This document shows, one piece after another, positions 43,013-50,621 of a DNA stretch of 64,000 nt; within the stretch, counting starts at the first letter, position 1, and the number at the start of each line of letters is the position of its first letter. Where the stretch lies: contig JAJBVT010000066.1 of assembly GCA_020859685.1 (NCBI GenBank), positions 1 to 64,000 on the forward strand, given 5' to 3'. The notes under the pieces are model-generated. The model was not told where the DNA came from. It did no database searches and was given only the letters and a program-made list of their open reading frames with translations. Origin of the DNA: Rikenellaceae bacterium. Lineage in GTDB: Bacteria > Bacteroidota > Bacteroidia > Bacteroidales > Rikenellaceae. The translations under genes and the position numbers were made by a program.

Positions 43013-43789
43013 TCAATCGTTCAGAAGTTTACCCATCAGTGCGTTTACCGCTTCGGGAATAGACGGTTCACTGCCGAGCAGGCGTATAAATTCGCTCCCG
43101 ATTATCGCCCCGTTAGCATTTGCACAGGCGGCCAGAAGGGTTCGGCGGTTCGAAATACCGAACCCTATCAGTCGCGGGTTACGCAGTCCCATACCGTTTA
43201 TCTTACGGAAATATCCGAGCGTTTCTTTGCTGAAACTGTCCTTCGCCCCGGTGGTGGACGCCGTGCTGACCATATAGATAAATCCGGAGGTATTATCGTC
43301 GATAAGACGTATGCGCTCTTCGGAGGTTTCGGGCGTGATAAGCATAATGAATTTGAGGCCGTATTCTTCCCCGAGGTCCTTATAATCCCGCATATAGTCG
43401 GCAAAGGGCAGGTCGGGAATTATCACCCCGTCGATGCCGCACTCGAAACAGTCGCGGCAGAATCGTTCCGGGCCGTACTGCATAATGGGATTAAGGTAGC
43501 CCATCATTACCAGCGGAATATCCACCTGTGTGCGGATATTTTCCAGCTCGGAGAATAGTTTTTTAAGCGACATGCCGTTGTTTAGCGCGACCGTACTACT
43601 CTGCTGAATCACCGGGCCATCGGCCATCGGGTCGGAGAACGGGATGCCCACTTCAATCATATCCGCGCCCTGGCCTGCCAGTTCCCGGATAACGGGTACG
43701 GTATCCTCCGCATGTGGATATCCTGCGGTGAAATAAACCGATATTATACCTTGCTGTTTGGTTGCGAAAAGTTTATCTATTCTGTTCAT
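43013..43789 (-). CDS. trpA: Tryptophan synthase alpha chain
   Basis: TrpA cleaves indole-3-glycerol phosphate to indole, passed to TrpB through a tunnel. The 258-residue protein has the catalytic Glu in MIEVGIPFSDPMADGPVIQ, the Asp in IPDLPFADY, the phosphate-binding ASTTGAK and the GFGISN segment. It is the last gene of the trpBEGDCFA operon and overlaps trpF by four bases. No terminator stood out right after it. Confidence 0.96.
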   Translation of the reverse strand: MNRIDKLFATKQQGIISVYFTAGYPHAEDTVPVIRELAGQGADMIEVGIPFSDPMADGPVIQQSSTVALNNGMSLKKLFSELENIRTQVDIPLVMMGYLNPIMQYGPERFCRDCFECGIDGVIIPDLPFADYMRDYKDLGEEYGLKFIMLITPETSEERIRLIDDNTSGFIYMVSTASTTGAKDSFSKETLGYFRKINGMGLRNPRLIGFGISNRRTLLAACANANGAIIGSEFIRLLGSEPSIPEAVNALMGKLLND

Positions 43790-44427
43790 ATCTTAATCCT
43801 AACTGTTTCTATAAATTCACTAAGTCTACTTATATCCTTGATGCCGGGAGAGGTTTCGAAACGGCTGTTCAGGTCGAACCCGGCGCAGCCGGGGTACCGG
43901 CCCGTATCGATACCGGCCTCCTCCGGCCCTATTCCCCCGCTCAGCAGGAAAGGGGTGGGCCCGGTATAGCTTTCGAGGACCGAATGGTCGAACTTAAGCC
44001 CCGAACCGCCTTTGAGCGGAGTTTTGGTATCGAAAAGAAGCAGTTCGCAAACGCCCTCGTACCGCCATGCCGTGGTAAGGTCTTCCCGGGAAGAGATGCC
44101 GAACGCCTTAAACACCTCGAGGCCCCGGTCGCGAAGCGTTCCGCATAGTTCCGGAGCTTCGCCGCCGTGAAGTTGTACGGCGTCCAGCCCGTATTCTTCT
44201 GCTTTCCGCAGAACGGCATCCATCGGTTCGTCCACAAATACCCCGACCTTACGGATGGTCTCCGGCAACCCCCGGACCGCCGCCGGGGCGAGCCCGAAAG
44301 CGTTGCGCGGCGAGGGACGGTAGAAGATAAACCCCATCATATCCGGGGTGAGCGCCGCCACTTCCCGCATATTGTCCGCATCGGCCATCCCGCACACTTT
44401 TAACACCGGAGTTCCCATCGCCGTCAT
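43786..44427 (-). CDS. trpF: Phosphoribosylanthranilate isomerase
   Basis: TrpF catalyses an Amadori rearrangement in tryptophan synthesis. The 213-residue TIM barrel has the catalytic Cys in LKVCGMADADN, GFIFYRPSPRN, the AVQLHGGEAPELC segment, and the phosphate-binding LLSGGIGPE with catalytic Asp nearby (LLFDTKT). It overlaps trpC and trpA by four bases at each end, consistent with translational coupling. Confidence 0.95.
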   Translation of the reverse strand: MTAMGTPVLKVCGMADADNMREVAALTPDMMGFIFYRPSPRNAFGLAPAAVRGLPETIRKVGVFVDEPMDAVLRKAEEYGLDAVQLHGGEAPELCGTLRDRGLEVFKAFGISSREDLTTAWRYEGVCELLLFDTKTPLKGGSGLKFDHSVLESYTGPTPFLLSGGIGPEEAGIDTGRYPGCAGFDLNSRFETSPGIKDISRLSEFIETVRIKI

Positions 44428-45212
44428 TTTTCGAGCACCTCGCCGAGGAATGTACGCAAAGCCCCGGCCGGGTCGCCGTGCTTCATAAAGTTCTCGCCCA
44501 TCAGAAAGCCCCGGTACCCGTGCCGGGCCAGCTTCCTTACCGTGGCCGGGTCGGATATTCCGCTCTCGGATATCAGCAGTTTACCGGCAGGCAGAAGTTC
44601 CGCCATCCTCACGGACACTGCCGTATCGGTAACGAAGGTGGTCAGGTCACGGTTATTAATGCCCACAACGTCCACATCGTCGCATACATGGTCCAACTCG
44701 TGAGGGCCGTGCAGTTCCAGCAGGACTTCGAGACCCAGCGCTTTGGCGAATGCCGCCAGGTCGGCGGTCCGCTCCACTGTGAGGTTCGCGGCAATCAACA
44801 GTATTGCGTCCGCACCCGCGGTACGGGCCTCGCAAATCTGGTAGGGGTCGATAATAAAATCCTTCCGCAGAAGGGGGAGAGCCGCGACTCCCCGCGCGGT
44901 GCGCAGGTCGGCGAGAGAACCGCCGAAATAGTCCCCGTCGGTGAGCACCGACACGGCCGCCGCTCCGGCGGCCTCGTATCCGGCAACTACTTCTTCCACA
45001 GACGCGGCGCTGTTTATATCGCCTTTTGAAGGCGAACGGCGCTTAAACTCGGCTATTATCCCGCCCGGAGTCCGTGCGATGGAGCCGGAGAACGATACCG
45101 TCGGCCGTTTTACGGCCTGCGCATCGGCGTATATGTCCGTGAAGGGCCGGGCGGCCTTAGCCGCCGCCACTTCCGTCTGTTTGGTCTCGATTATGTGTTC
45201 GAGTATATTCAT
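44424..45212 (-). CDS. trpC: Indole-3-glycerol phosphate synthase
   Basis: TrpC closes the indole ring. The 262-residue protein has IIAEFKRRSPSKGDI, the LLRKDFIIDPYQICEA catalytic Lys segment, AILLIAANL, VVGINNRDLTTF and SESGISDPATV. It is a stand-alone enzyme, not the TrpC-TrpF fusion of enteric bacteria. It is cotranscribed with trpD (102-base gap) and overlaps trpF. Confidence 0.96.
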   Translation of the reverse strand: MNILEHIIETKQTEVAAAKAARPFTDIYADAQAVKRPTVSFSGSIARTPGGIIAEFKRRSPSKGDINSAASVEEVVAGYEAAGAAAVSVLTDGDYFGGSLADLRTARGVAALPLLRKDFIIDPYQICEARTAGADAILLIAANLTVERTADLAAFAKALGLEVLLELHGPHELDHVCDDVDVVGINNRDLTTFVTDTAVSVRMAELLPAGKLLISESGISDPATVRKLARHGYRGFLMGENFMKHGDPAGALRTFLGEVLEK

Positions 45213-45314: not shown

Positions 45315-46313
45315 CTAACCCGCGTTAAGTTCCACGAACCGGGCGAATGCCCCGGCGGCACGGCCGGAATGAATGGATTCCCGCGCCATACCTATACAAT
45401 CGGCAATGGACAGCGACGGCTCGAAATTCCGTATGGCGAATGCCGCGTTCACCACGACGGCGTTCTCCTGCGCCGGAGTCGCCACACCGTTCAGCACACT
45501 GTCGAATATCCCCGCCGCTTCGCGGACGGTATCCCCGCCGTGAAGTTCCTCCTGTCCGGCCCGGGGGAACCCGAGTTCCTCCGGGGTGAGGATACTCTCG
45601 CCGTCGTTGTCGAAGCATTTGAATTCGCTCGTGAGCGATATCTCGTCGTAACCGTCGAGCGAATTTACGATGGTAAACCGTGTGTCGCCCTGTTGGTACA
45701 TATAGTTGTAGAGCCGGGCCAGTTTCAGGTTGTACACCCCCAGCAGTTGCCGCCGGGGAATGGCCGGGTTTACCAGCGGGCCCAGCATGTTGAAGAACGT
45801 GCGCACCCCCAACGCTTTGCGCACCGGGCCTACGGCCTTCAGCGCAGGATTAAAGAACTGAGCGTGGAGGTAGGCTATATTGCACTCGTCCAGCGACCGT
45901 CGCAACCGGTCCGTGTCGGTCGTAAACTTTACGCCGTGGTGCTCGATAACGTTCGAGGCCCCGCTCACCGAAGTCGCGCCGTAATTGCCGTGCTTCACCA
46001 CCTTATACCCGGCCCCGGCTACGGTGAAACAGGCCGCAGTAGAGATATTGAATGTGTTCTTATTGTCGCCGCCCGTGCCAACTATATCTATCGCATCGTA
46101 ATCTCCGAGGTCCACCGGTACGCGCATTTCCAGCAGTGCGTCGCGGAACCCCGACAGCTCGTCGAGAGTGATGCTCCTCATCAGGAAGACGGTTATGAAA
46201 GCCGCTATCTGGCTGTCGTTGAACTCTCCCCGGGCCATCCGGATAAGCACGTCACGGGCCTCGGCGCGGTCCAGTTCGGTGTGCTCGAAGAGCCTGTAAA
46301 GTATATTTTTCAT
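45315..46313 (-). CDS. trpD: Anthranilate phosphoribosyltransferase
   Basis: TrpD transfers phosphoribose to anthranilate. The 332-residue protein starts at MKNILYRLFEHTEL, with the PRPP-binding VGTGGDNKNTFNIST, KHGNYGATSVSGASNVIEHH and the DGYDEISL segment. The frame continues upstream for 17 more codons, but that stretch lies in the trpG end and lacks conserved residues. It is not fused to TrpG here. Confidence 0.95.
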   Translation of the reverse strand: MKNILYRLFEHTELDRAEARDVLIRMARGEFNDSQIAAFITVFLMRSITLDELSGFRDALLEMRVPVDLGDYDAIDIVGTGGDNKNTFNISTAACFTVAGAGYKVVKHGNYGATSVSGASNVIEHHGVKFTTDTDRLRRSLDECNIAYLHAQFFNPALKAVGPVRKALGVRTFFNMLGPLVNPAIPRRQLLGVYNLKLARLYNYMYQQGDTRFTIVNSLDGYDEISLTSEFKCFDNDGESILTPEELGFPRAGQEELHGGDTVREAAGIFDSVLNGVATPAQENAVVVNAAFAIRNFEPSLSIADCIGMARESIHSGRAAGAFARFVELNAG

Positions 46314-46324
46314 ACGGAGTCGGT

Positions 46325-46894
46325 TTACAGTTCGAGCCAGTTTTTGAGAATTGCGTTTCCGCACGGGGTCAGTACCGATTCCGGGTGGAACTGCACCCCC
46401 CGAACATCGTAACGGCGGTGGCGCAGGGCCATAATATTTCCTGTGGCGTCTTCGGCTGTTATTTCCAGTTCTCCGTCCGGGAACCCTTCACGGTCCACAA
46501 TCCAAGAGTGGTAACGCCCGGCGACGAAAGTTTCGTCGACACCGGCAAAAACAGGGTCCGGAGCGGTAACCTTTATTTCGGTCCCTACCCCGTGGTACAC
46601 GTCAGGCAGGTTGAGCAGCCGCGCCCCGAACACCTCCCCGATGGCCTGCTCCCCGAGGCACACCCCGAAAATGCTCTTTGAAGGTGCGTACTCATTTATA
46701 AGCGCGCATAATATACCGCTCTCGGACGGAATACCGGGGCCGGGCGATAGCAATATCTTGTCATATGCCGCTGCATCTTCGACAGCGATTTTATCGTTCC
46801 TCGCCACTGTAATATTTCCCGCTCCGGCCTCGCGGAGCGAGTGGACAAGGTTATAAGTGAACGAGTCGTAGTTATCCAATACCAGTATTTTCAT
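46325..46894 (-). CDS. trpG: Anthranilate synthase glutamine amidotransferase component
   Basis: TrpG supplies ammonia from glutamine to TrpE. The 189-residue protein starts MKILVLDNYDSFTYNLVHSL (MNNMKIL three codons earlier is possible), with the oxyanion LSPGPGIPSE, nucleophile Cys in FGVCLGEQAI, and the HPES catalytic His/Glu. It follows trpE by 173 bases containing one dispersed repeat and lies 11 bases before trpD. Confidence 0.96.
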   Translation of the reverse strand: MKILVLDNYDSFTYNLVHSLREAGAGNITVARNDKIAVEDAAAYDKILLSPGPGIPSESGILCALINEYAPSKSIFGVCLGEQAIGEVFGARLLNLPDVYHGVGTEIKVTAPDPVFAGVDETFVAGRYHSWIVDREGFPDGELEITAEDATGNIMALRHRRYDVRGVQFHPESVLTPCGNAILKNWLEL

Positions 46895-46916
46895 GTTATT
46901 CATTTTACATTTATAA

Positions 46917-46950
46917 GTCATCCCGAGGAGCCGGTGGCGACGAAGGACCT
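46917..46950. repeat. Dispersed repeat within the trp operon
   Basis: GTCATCCCGAGGAGCCGGTG (46917) leads into GACGAAGGACCT (46950), an inverted relative of the ATCCTTCG to GGATGACA repeats. It sits in the trpE-trpG gap, the largest inside the operon. Confidence 0.5.
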
Positions 46951-47067: not shown

Positions 47068-48468
47068 TTAATTTTTTATTTCCCCGGCTATTTCAATAGC
47101 CTTTCGCAGCGCGCCCAGCTTATTGTTCACCTCTTTTAGTTCGTTTTCCGGGACCGATTTTGAAACGATGCCCGCCCCAGCCTGGAAATAGAGGGTATTG
47201 TTGCGGCTGACAAATGTCCGGATAGTGATGGCCTGGTTAAGGTTGCCGTCGAACCCGATACGGCCGATACAACCGCCGTACACCCCCCGCGGATGCGCCT
47301 CTATTTCGTCTATCAGCTGCATGGCCCGTACCTTCGGGGCGCCCGAAAGGGTCCCGGCCGGGAATGTGTCGGCGAATAGGCTGATACGGTTCACTTCGGG
47401 CGCTATATCACCCTGTACGCGCGACACCATATGGATAACGTGTGAGTAGAACTGTATCTCCTTGTATGATACCACCCGGACATTGGACGCGTTGCGGCTC
47501 AGGTCGTTGCGGGCGAGGTCCACCAGCATTACGTGCTCGGCATTCTCCTTGGGGTCGGCTATCAGCCGCTCAGCCAGAAGGCGGTCCTTCTCGTCGTCTC
47601 CGGTACGGTAAATGGTCCCCGCGATAGGGTCGATTGTCGCTTTGCCGCCCTCGACTTTTACATGTGTTTCGGGCGAGGAACCGAAAATGCGGAACGATCC
47701 GAAATCGAAATAGAACAGGTACGGCGAAGGATTCACCGACCTCAGGGCGCGATAGACCATAAAGTCGTCGCCCATATACTGCTGTTCGAACCGGCGCGAG
47801 AGCACTATCTGGAACACGTCTCCGCGCATACAGTGCGCGATACCTTTCTCGACCATCTTCATATAATCCCCGTCGGTAATCGGGGATGAAACCCCGCTGC
47901 GAACGGAGAAGCCGTAGGTCGGAAAATTACGGCTCTCGATTACCGAAAGCAGTTCGTCCAGCCCGCTCGGGCATCCCCCGGTCAGATTCTCCGTTACGGT
48001 CATCTCGTTGCGCAGGTGGTTGACCGCCACCACGTAACGGTACAGGATATAGGTAATTTCGGGTATCCCGGTCAACTCCTCGTCGGTCCCTGTAATTTCG
48101 ACATCTTCGAAATAATTTACCGCATCGTAAGAGGTGTAGCCGAACAGTCCGTTTGAAGCGGCCGTATCGCCCGTCACACAAAACGACGAAACGAAATCGT
48201 TCAGCGCGTCCTGCACCGTGCGGCCGTTCACGGCGGTAACATTAATCGTCCCGTCCGGGTACTGCTCGGTTATTTTCCCGCCGCGCACCGAGAACCGGGC
48301 GAGCGGTTCGATGCCGATGTACGAGTAGCTGTTCTCCGACGAGTGGTAGTCGGAACTCTCGAGCAGGGCCGACTGCGGGTACATATCGCGCACTTTGAGG
48401 TATATGCCCACCGGGGTCTGAAGGTCGGCCAGCAGGCGGCGGGAGTTGACCGTTATTTTTGTTTTCAT
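47068..48468 (-). CDS. trpE: Anthranilate synthase component I
   Basis: TrpE makes anthranilate from chorismate. The 466-residue protein has the feedback-site LLESSDYHSSENSYSYIG near the N-terminus, and the chorismate-binding domain with SRRFEQQYMGDDF, RIFGSSPETHVKVEGG, PIAGTIYRTG, ELIADPKENAEHVMLVDLAR-like segment and the RAMQLIDEIEAHPRG helix. The LLESS motif suggests retained tryptophan feedback inhibition. It is the second gene of the operon, after trpB. Confidence 0.96.
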   Translation of the reverse strand: MKTKITVNSRRLLADLQTPVGIYLKVRDMYPQSALLESSDYHSSENSYSYIGIEPLARFSVRGGKITEQYPDGTINVTAVNGRTVQDALNDFVSSFCVTGDTAASNGLFGYTSYDAVNYFEDVEITGTDEELTGIPEITYILYRYVVAVNHLRNEMTVTENLTGGCPSGLDELLSVIESRNFPTYGFSVRSGVSSPITDGDYMKMVEKGIAHCMRGDVFQIVLSRRFEQQYMGDDFMVYRALRSVNPSPYLFYFDFGSFRIFGSSPETHVKVEGGKATIDPIAGTIYRTGDDEKDRLLAERLIADPKENAEHVMLVDLARNDLSRNASNVRVVSYKEIQFYSHVIHMVSRVQGDIAPEVNRISLFADTFPAGTLSGAPKVRAMQLIDEIEAHPRGVYGGCIGRIGFDGNLNQAITIRTFVSRNNTLYFQAGAGIVSKSVPENELKEVNNKLGALRKAIEIAGEIKN

Positions 48469-48570: not shown

Positions 48571-49770
48571 TTACGAACCCGACTGCCGGGTTTTATTAAA
48601 ATACTCCACGAACGTCTCCATATCCTTATCGCCACGGCCGGATAGGGTAAGCACCACCACTTCTTCCGGGTGGAACTCCATCTTACCGAGCGCGCCGAGC
48701 GCATGGGCCGACTCGATTGCGGGGATAATACCTTCGAGACGAGTCAGTTCCATCGCCGCATCGAGAGCCTCTTCGTCCGTTACCGCCACGACCCGGGTTC
48801 TGCCCGTAACCGCAAGGTTGGCGTGCATCGGCCCGATACCGGGATAGTCCAGTCCGGCCGAGACCGAGTAAGGCTCGGTAATCTGCCCGTCCTCATCCTG
48901 CATCACGAACGTGCGGCTGCCGTGGATTATACCCCGCTTGCCGAGGTGGATAGTGGCGGCCGTTTCGCCCGAATCGACACCCAGTCCGGCCGCCTCGCTT
49001 GCCACCAGTTTTACCCGCATATCGTCCAGATAGTGGTAAAATGTCCCCGCGCAGTTGCTTCCACCGCCAACACAGGCCATCAGGTAGTCGGGATATTCCC
49101 GTCCTTCCTGCCGCATAAGCTGCTTCTTTATCTCGGCGCTTATCACCGACTGGAACCGAGCCACCATATCCGGATACGGGTGCGGGCCCACCGTGGAACC
49201 GATTATGTAGTGCGTGTCGGACGGGTTGCAGCACCAGTCGCGTATAGCTTCGTTGGTGGCATCCTTCAGGGTCTTGTTTCCGCTGGTGACAGGCCGAACC
49301 TCGGCCCCGAGCATCTCCATCTTCTGGACGTTCAGCCTCTGCCGGGCGATATCCGTCTCGCCCATATAGACTATGCACTCCATCCCTTTCAGGGCGCATA
49401 CCGTTGCCGTGGCCACGCCGTGCTGGCCAGCACCCGTCTCGGCGATAATGCGGGATTTGCCCATCCTGCGGGCCAGAAGTATTTGGCCTATGGTGTTGTT
49501 GATCTTGTGGGCGCCCGTGTGGTTAAGGTCCTCGCGTTTGAGGTAGATGTGCGCGCCGTATTTAACGGACAGTCGCGAGGCGTAGTAGAGCGGCGTCGGG
49601 CGGCCGACGTAGTCCCGCAGCAGGTTATCGAACTCGGCCCGGAACTCGGGGTCCGCCATAATCTCGAGGTACCGTTCACGGAGGTTCTTAACATTACCGT
49701 AGAGTATCTCCGGAATGTACGCTCCCCCGAACTCCCCGTAATACCCCTCGCTGTTTACATTGTAATCCAT
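48571..49770 (-). CDS. trpB: Tryptophan synthase beta chain
   Basis: TrpB condenses indole and serine using PLP. The 399-residue protein has [12 protein letters not shown], the PLP lysine Lys89 in [24 protein letters not shown], the phosphate-binding [10 protein letters not shown] and catalytic-region [11 protein letters not shown]. It heads the operon, an order typical of Bacteroidetes (trpBEGDCFA), and is preceded by the leader peptide and attenuator. Confidence 0.97.
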
Positions 49771-49828: not shown

Positions 49829-49864
49829 CAAAAATTAAGGGCTGTCGTGAATCCGACAGCCCTT
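49829..49864 (-). terminator. trp attenuator terminator
   Basis: On the minus strand, AAGGGCTGTCG (49864-49854) and CGACAGCCCTT (49847-49837) form an 11-bp stem with a six-base loop, followed by AATTTTTG. The loop and upper arm (ATTCACGAC, 49852-49844) can instead pair with GTCGTGAAT (49914-49906), which overlaps the trpL stop, forming an antiterminator. Confidence 0.88.
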
Positions 49865-49907
49865 TTATGTTGTTTCGCTTCCTCAAGCTAACATACGGCG
49901 TTACCAT

Positions 49908-49967
49908 TCACGACTCCCGGAGCTGTGAACGCCACCACCATGCGTTATTTGAGAACAATTTTTTCAT
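49908..49967 (-). CDS. trpL: trp leader peptide with three consecutive Trp codons
   Basis: This minus-strand frame encodes 19 residues, MKKLFSNNAWWWRSQLRES, with three TGG codons in a row at positions 10-12. Just after them GGCGTT can pair with AACGCC (strand 1:2); the stop region GTCGTGAAT can pair with the terminator's upper arm (strand 2:3). Ribosome stalling at the Trp codons when charged tRNA-Trp is scarce would cover strand 1 and favour the antiterminator, allowing trpB onward to be read. The leader lies ~36 bases after the predicted transcript start. Confidence 0.88.
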   Translation of the reverse strand: MKKLFSNNAWWWRSQLRES

Positions 49968-50009
49968 TGTTTAACCGTTTCCGCCCGTACCGGCACGTAC
50001 TTTCGAATG

Positions 50010-50039
50010 CAAATATAAATAAATTTTCAGTAAAGCAAA
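50010..50039 (-). promoter_or_regulatory. trp operon promoter TTTG-N18-TATATTTG
   Basis: The minus strand reads TTTG (50039-50036), 18 bases, TATATTTG (50017-50010). The transcript would begin around 50003, upstream of trpL. Confidence 0.65.
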
Positions 50040-50159: not shown

Positions 50160-50621
50160 ATGAAAACCCACGATTTAAAACTTGGCGCGGTTCTGTTTTT
50201 ATCGGTTTACACTTTCCTGTCATGCAAATCGGACGAGAAGGTTGAGACATGGACGGCTACCGGAACAATTATCGGCAGCTACTCCAACGGCTTCGGTTCT
50301 CTACTTCTTCATGTCGACGAGGATTACCCGATAGGTAAAATACTCGAATGTGACCGGGCGGGTAACCCAGATTCACACGGAGTCAACGGTACCGGACTGA
50401 CTATGCCCGAAGCCGGTACTTATAATAACATGATTCAGGTGCAGGCCCATATGGATAAGACTTTTTATGAGATAGCGGACAAAAATCTGTACTTCACTTA
50501 CAGGGAATATAATGAAGAGAAAGACCGTGAGTTGTTTACAATCGATTCAGGAGTTGCCTTTTGGCTTTATGCAAATCCCGATGTTCCGAAATATGTTATA
50601 ACATCTTATAAAATTCTGTAA
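50160..50621 (+). CDS. Hypothetical lipoprotein
   Basis: This 153-residue lipoprotein has a type II signal peptide (VYTFLSC, Cys22). The mature part is beta-rich with LEC, YYIEN-free turns and segments such as GSYSNGFGSLLLHVDEDYPI and IADKNLYFTYREYNEEKDRE. I do not recognise it. A TAACTTTA element (one mismatch) is at 50147-50154. It is divergent from the trp leader region and lies 61 bases before the next unknown secreted protein. Confidence 0.6.
   Translation: MKTHDLKLGAVLFLSVYTFLSCKSDEKVETWTATGTIIGSYSNGFGSLLLHVDEDYPIGKILECDRAGNPDSHGVNGTGLTMPEAGTYNNMIQVQAHMDKTFYEIADKNLYFTYREYNEEKDRELFTIDSGVAFWLYANPDVPKYVITSYKIL

Follow-up and report, generated by a model that had tools for sequence, protein, structure and literature searches.

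A Bacteroid-trp leader before trpB with a predicted antiterminator that captures the terminator loop and 3′ arm

Comparison of leader sequences and modelling of their folds lead us to propose, with a probability of about 0.8, that trpB-A in the window (the whole 64,000-nucleotide stretch of Rikenellaceae DNA analysed here) is preceded by a ribosome-mediated transcription attenuator of the Bacteroid-trp type, in which leader strand 2 would act as antiterminator by capturing the loop and 3′ arm of the terminator (2:4 pairing). With ample Trp-tRNA, the ribosome would read through the Trp codons, end at the UGA within strand 2 and cover that strand, so that the 3:4 terminator forms and trpB-A is left untranscribed; in a leader without a ribosome, strands 1 and 2 would pair and the terminator would form as well. 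When Trp-tRNA is short, we infer that a ribosome delayed at one of the later Trp codons would cover strand 1 and free strand 2, which could then pair with the loop of the emerging terminator and with the start of its 3′ arm; 3:4 would not be closed in time, and read-through would follow. The initial annotation of this region had interpreted it as a trp attenuator of enterobacterial logic, a view that is partly supported, being right in outline and wrong on the wiring, and the family is one already known.

The leader and its operon

The whole element occupies 49830–50039 of the minus strand and consists of a promoter, a 19-codon leader and an 11-bp terminator with its U-tract, followed by trpB-E-G-D-C-F-A. 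These parts had been listed in the initial annotation (promoter, 19-codon WWW leader, antiterminator, 11-bp terminator, T run, and trpB thereafter), and all are present, on the minus strand; the comparison of related leaders that it had suggested finds the leader, the antiterminator pairing, the terminator and the promoter retained in relatives. In the promoter, a −33 element, TTTG (50039–50036), is separated by 18 nt from a −7 element, TATATTTG (TAnnTTTG; 50017–50010). The arrangement TTTG-N17-22-TAnnTTTG occurs upstream of 57 of 76 leaders, where shuffles lead one to expect 0.07, and TAnnTTTG alone occurs in 73 of the 76 (3.9 expected); judged by these motifs, the promoter of the trp leader is of the Bacteroidota type. 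The intergenic region is common to the trp leader and a divergent ORF (50160–50621, plus strand) with a lipoprotein-like N-terminus.

The leader ORF (49908–49967, minus strand, like all features that follow) runs through 19 codons from the ATG at 49967 to the TGA ending at 49908 and encodes MKKLFSNNAWWWRSQLRES. A WW or WWW leader stands in the same position in nearly all trpB-upstream regions examined, and the three regulatory Trp codons, TGGTGGTGG (49940–49932), are conserved columns in A1, a MAFFT alignment of 60 Bacteroidales leaders built without structure. Strand 1, CGTTCACAGCTC (49920–49931), appears in the MFE fold and as a consensus helix with changes on both sides; its pairing with strand 2 would block the antiterminator, and stalling of a ribosome over the last Trp codons would hide strand 1 from that partner. 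The 1:2 pairing originally annotated, GGCGTT/AACGCC, is found in only two of 56 WWW leaders. The conserved strand 1 is instead the TTCAC..AGCTC segment directly after the Trp codons, with GAGT.CGTGAA as its partner, and this 1:2 helix was recovered independently by RNAalifold.

Strand 2, GTCGTGAAT (49914–49906), is the 5′ half of the putative antiterminator and includes the leader stop codon (TGA, 49910–49908); the 3′ half, ATTCACGAC (49844–49852), combines the loop of the terminator with the 4 nt that open its 3′ arm. The intrinsic terminator itself (strands 3 and 4; 49864–49837) is read from sequence and fold as AAGGGCTGTCG-GATTCA-CGACAGCCCTT, with an 11-bp stem and a 6-nt loop, and is followed by the U-tract AATTTTT (49830–49836). 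In A1, 10 of its 11 pairs have compensatory changes, 99.4% of cells are paired and 90 cells are changed on both sides. The leader RNA folds with z = −5.3 relative to dinucleotide shuffles, none of 200 being as good.

About 60 nt separate the terminator and U-tract from trpB (48571–49770), the first structural gene (NCBIfam TIGR00263, 582 bits). Downstream lie trpE (47068–48468), for which the best NCBIfam match, TIGR00564 at 421 bits, is below the equivalog cut-off and the assignment draws on operon context; trpG (46325–46921; TIGR00566, above cut-off); trpD (45315–46364; TIGR01245, above cut-off), an ORF counted from its first GTG whose true start is probably an inner ATG; trpC (44424–45212; NF001377, above cut-off); trpF (43786–44427), whose best matches are phosphoribosylanthranilate isomerase models, below their equivalog cut-offs; and trpA (43013–43789; TIGR00262, above cut-off). 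The nearest relatives in a TrpB tree are Rikenellaceae, with a best identity of 92%. The placement ‘ahead of trpB instead of trpE’, to which attention had been drawn, is correct here but reflects the operon order of Bacteroidales: the leader is followed by trpB in those Bacteroidales whose operon has this order, by trpE in family f15 (another order) and in many families of that order, and by trpD in family f12. The regulator is conserved while the gene order of the operon differs.

Related arrangements were seen elsewhere. Tandem trp leaders, both of them equipped with Trp codons and a terminator, precede a single trp operon as a double attenuator, with two strong matches each in L266, L267 and L273 and a weaker second match in L269 and L272. 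WW or WWW leaders with terminators also lie upstream of a TrpB-like gene (L281, L282, L287 and L291), which in L281 and L282 matches NCBIfam TIGR01415/NF009057; this suggests that the second TrpB type is tryptophan-regulated. Upstream of ilvD (L109, L111, L116, L117, L122 and L123) there are candidate leader-like ORFs rich in Ile, Val and Leu, with a hairpin and T-run.

The partner of strand 2 in the terminator hairpin

In the E. coli trp leader, strand 2 pairs with strand 3, the terminator 5′ arm, giving helices 1:2, 2:3 and 3:4, and in textbook attenuators the 5′ arm is sequestered before the 3′ arm is made. The window leader resembles E. coli trpL in its tandem Trp codons, its three mutually exclusive helices and the position of its terminator before the first trp gene; the trpL antiterminator, however, pairs with the 5′ arm (CGGGC/GCCCG), whereas that of the window, within which the stop codon of the leader lies, would pair with the loop and 3′ arm. 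The enterobacterial logic first invoked for the window is thus borne out for the short leader peptide with tandem Trp codons and for the 3:4 intrinsic terminator before the structural genes, and fails for the wiring, a 2:3 antiterminator that sequesters the 5′ arm being replaced by one that takes the loop and 3′ arm.

The 2:4 pairing is GTCGTGAAT with ATTCACGAC in the window and its nearest relatives, and typical counterparts are GTCGTGAG/CTCACGAC in Dysgonomonas, GTCGTAAG/CTTACGAC in Bacteroides and Phocaeicola, and GTCGTAAG/CTTGCGGC in Parabacteroides. In nearly all Bacteroidales leaders the distance from the final Trp codon to the start of the strand 2 duplex is 16–23 nt, with or without the stop codon in that duplex. 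Because the stop codon is inside strand 2 in most leaders, a compensatory relation is seen in which the stop UGA goes with UCA in the loop and UAA with UUA. Where the frame runs past strand 2 (L004, L006 and L086, among others), the motif persists without serving as a stop codon, and its retention points to RNA pairing and not coding. The 2:4 helix is paired in 86.9% of cells in A1, compared with at most 54% in slid registers, and both sides are changed in 32 cells, where shuffles give 13.6 ± 2.7. One strand 2 column forms GC with the terminator loop in 38 of the 60 leaders, AU in 20 and GU in two, and with strand 1 the same column gives CG in 22, UA in 19 and UG in 17; it covaries with both, as a three-way switch requires.

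We rejected the reading of this covariation as many independent events within the first 60 leaders: on the TrpB tree, the UGA/UAA change together with that in the loop amounts to only one or two events, and independent support for 2:4 therefore rests on a wider set. For this, genomes of the phylum, class and order were searched with a covariance model, R1, that contains 1:2 and 3:4 without 2:4; most matches of the phylum search above about E = 1e-5 were dropped as plain terminators without a leader. Among 105 leader matches, the seven core 2:4 pairs are formed in 88% of cells, compared with 82% when partner strands are randomly reassigned between sequences, a gap that is small because of strong sequence conservation; none of 500 shuffles was as high. 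Pairs that are replaced yet complementary come from several families and include TCGGGAG/CTCCCGA, CGGGAG/CTCCCG, ACCGTGAGT/ACTCACGGT, GTTGCCGCT/AGCGGCGAC and CGCTGTGA/TCACAGCG.

Strand 2 and the terminator loop might instead pair together with the lower stem, as a pseudoknot, the tertiary complex then regulating by pausing or weakened termination and the two helices not being exclusive alternatives. Such coexistence is possible in principle, as strand 2 leaves seven base pairs in the stem uncontested (AAGGGCT/AGCCCTT). Since strands 2 and 3 both contain GTCG and compete for one CGAC, however, the two pairings seem to be exclusive, and we regard a pseudoknot as unlikely.

The choice between terminator arms was followed by an unbiased scan, in which each post-Trp segment was allowed its best duplex anywhere in the terminator hairpin. 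The 3′ arm/loop was preferred in 131 of 149 trp leaders of the window's type in total, although significance per leader is limited (63 of the 149 at p ≤ 0.05, 60 of these with the 3′ arm/loop). The preference was seen in 67 of 71 named Bacteroidales leaders, in 22 of 23 leaders before trpE in family f15, and in 42 of 55 leaders from diverse families of the same order as f15, a set with many weaker matches in which complementarity is individually significant in 16. The 5′ arm was preferred in 11 of 13 hisG leaders from the window's genome and its relatives, in all five f12 trp leaders and in E. coli trpL, so the scan recovers the classical wiring where it is present.

Textbook wiring in the window, with strand 2 sequestering strand 3, would draw on the same parts list and has precedent in E. 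coli trpL, in the f12 trp leaders and in the hisG leaders of these genomes; ACAGCTC in the window can indeed pair with GGGCTGT. This pairing is gone already in L002, at 92% TrpB identity, however, and a significant 2:3 duplex occurs in none of 74 Bacteroidales and 27 f15 trp leaders. Moreover, conservation and covariation are seen in the loop, which would otherwise be free to vary, and no conserved partner exists for the 5′ arm. We therefore consider 5′-arm capture here very improbable, and think it likely that 2:4 capture is shared beyond the window: trp leaders of Bacteroidales and of at least one other order of the class would share the 1:2, 2:4, 3:4 wiring, with a stop-bearing strand 2 that captures the terminator loop and 3′ arm and with co-evolution of stop and loop, whereas 5′-arm wiring would be found in the his leaders of the same genomes and in some trp leaders elsewhere in the class.

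The hisG leaders of the same order are similar in layout to the window leader, with a His run, a stop codon that adjoins the antiterminator strand and a terminator before hisG. The hisG leader of the window's genome, L097, shows classical 5′-arm capture (GGGGGTAAGTC/GACTTGCCCTT), whereas the trp leader of that genome is predicted to be wired 2:4; both wirings would thus coexist in one genome. L097 (G000:C56) and L092–L107, from this genome and its relatives, have HHHH leader peptides and are classical 5′-arm attenuators upstream of hisG. Classical 5′-arm trp leaders were seen elsewhere in the class in L148 (family f14) and in L162, L163 and L167 (family f12), and the wiring has presumably switched during evolution.

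Predicted switching of the leader RNA

We folded growing transcripts with ribosome footprints masked; footprint sizes were assumed, and only nested pairs were allowed, without pseudoknots. For the window, with 4–6 nt of the 3′ arm out, the mean probability of 2:4 rises to 0.92 when the ribosome is stalled at the second Trp codon and to 0.87 at the third, and it is 0 when the leader is free of ribosomes or when one stands at the stop codon. Stalling at the first Trp codon gives only about 0.46, and the switch depends on the two codons that follow. In a set of 34 trp leaders, the probability with a stalled ribosome was at least 0.86 in 33, and with the ribosome at the stop it was near 0 in nearly all.

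The full-length RNA at equilibrium always prefers the terminator. Antitermination must therefore be kinetic in this model, and we infer that 2:4 would hold while the polymerase passes the U-tract. The same preference at full length is found in most classical leaders tested, E. coli trpL included, so this kinetic demand is no special weakness of 2:4. The notion that 2:4 alone is thermodynamically transient was rejected, as the masked-fold model gives the same behaviour for most classical his, f12 and E. coli leaders.

Control of the terminator without leader translation, by a Trp-binding protein, T-box or riboswitch with an incidental leader ORF, is known in other phyla (TRAP, T-box) but is hardly credible here, given that an Rfam scan found no T-box or riboswitch match in the window, that few features are as well conserved as the tandem Trp codons, which stand at a fixed distance from strand 2, and that His runs replace the Trp codons before hisG.

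Relation to the Bacteroid-trp family

An Rfam scan of the window at default threshold returned no trp leader and only a tRNA at the gathering threshold; a relaxed scan matched the leader to Bacteroid-trp, RF01692, at 37.6 bits. The gathering cut-off is 49, and the default scan misses the window copy because its score lies below this. Members above the cut-off include L016 (81 bits), L059 (54.8), L022 and L039 (52.4 each) and the f15 leaders (72.7–80.1); they align end to end with the window copy. Because one alignment joins the window copy with these above-cut-off copies, the window element is, on sequence evidence, homologous to RF01692. Like that family, it lies upstream of trp genes in Bacteroidota and combines a tandem-Trp leader ORF with a conserved long hairpin. 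The Rfam model, however, stops within the terminator 5′ arm, which leaves it unable to represent the 2:4 antiterminator pairing.

Bacteroid-trp is listed as a probable cis-regulatory RNA by Weinberg et al. (2010; PMC2864571), the main text of which lists the motif only, and has been noted ahead of the Flavobacterium psychrophilum trp operon (PMC6414381). A flavobacterial transcriptome study gave clues for leader-peptide attenuation before amino-acid operons (PMC9723704). With the family already catalogued and these clues in the literature, attenuation at a trp leader is expected and not new. That ribosome stalling at the Trp codons would control the terminator, as the initial annotation proposed, is strongly supported by conservation and covariation and matches RF01692. 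What the present comparison appears to add is the 2:4 wiring with its embedded stop codon, the covariation, and the contrast with the classical his leaders of the same genome. Our literature search found no relevant 3′-arm/loop antiterminator in leader-peptide attenuators, although the 2010 supplementary alignment of Bacteroid-trp may already mark the pairing.

For Bacteroid-trp, a known RNA family, we found no mechanism described, and the 2:4 wiring would supply one. In such wiring the competing strand targets the loop and 3′ arm, the segments that are made last, and the decision must therefore fall in the brief interval in which the polymerase reaches the U-tract. The kinetics of attenuation would thereby become testable through loop mutations that spare the terminator stem, and searches for 5′-arm antiterminators only will miss or misread leaders wired in this way.
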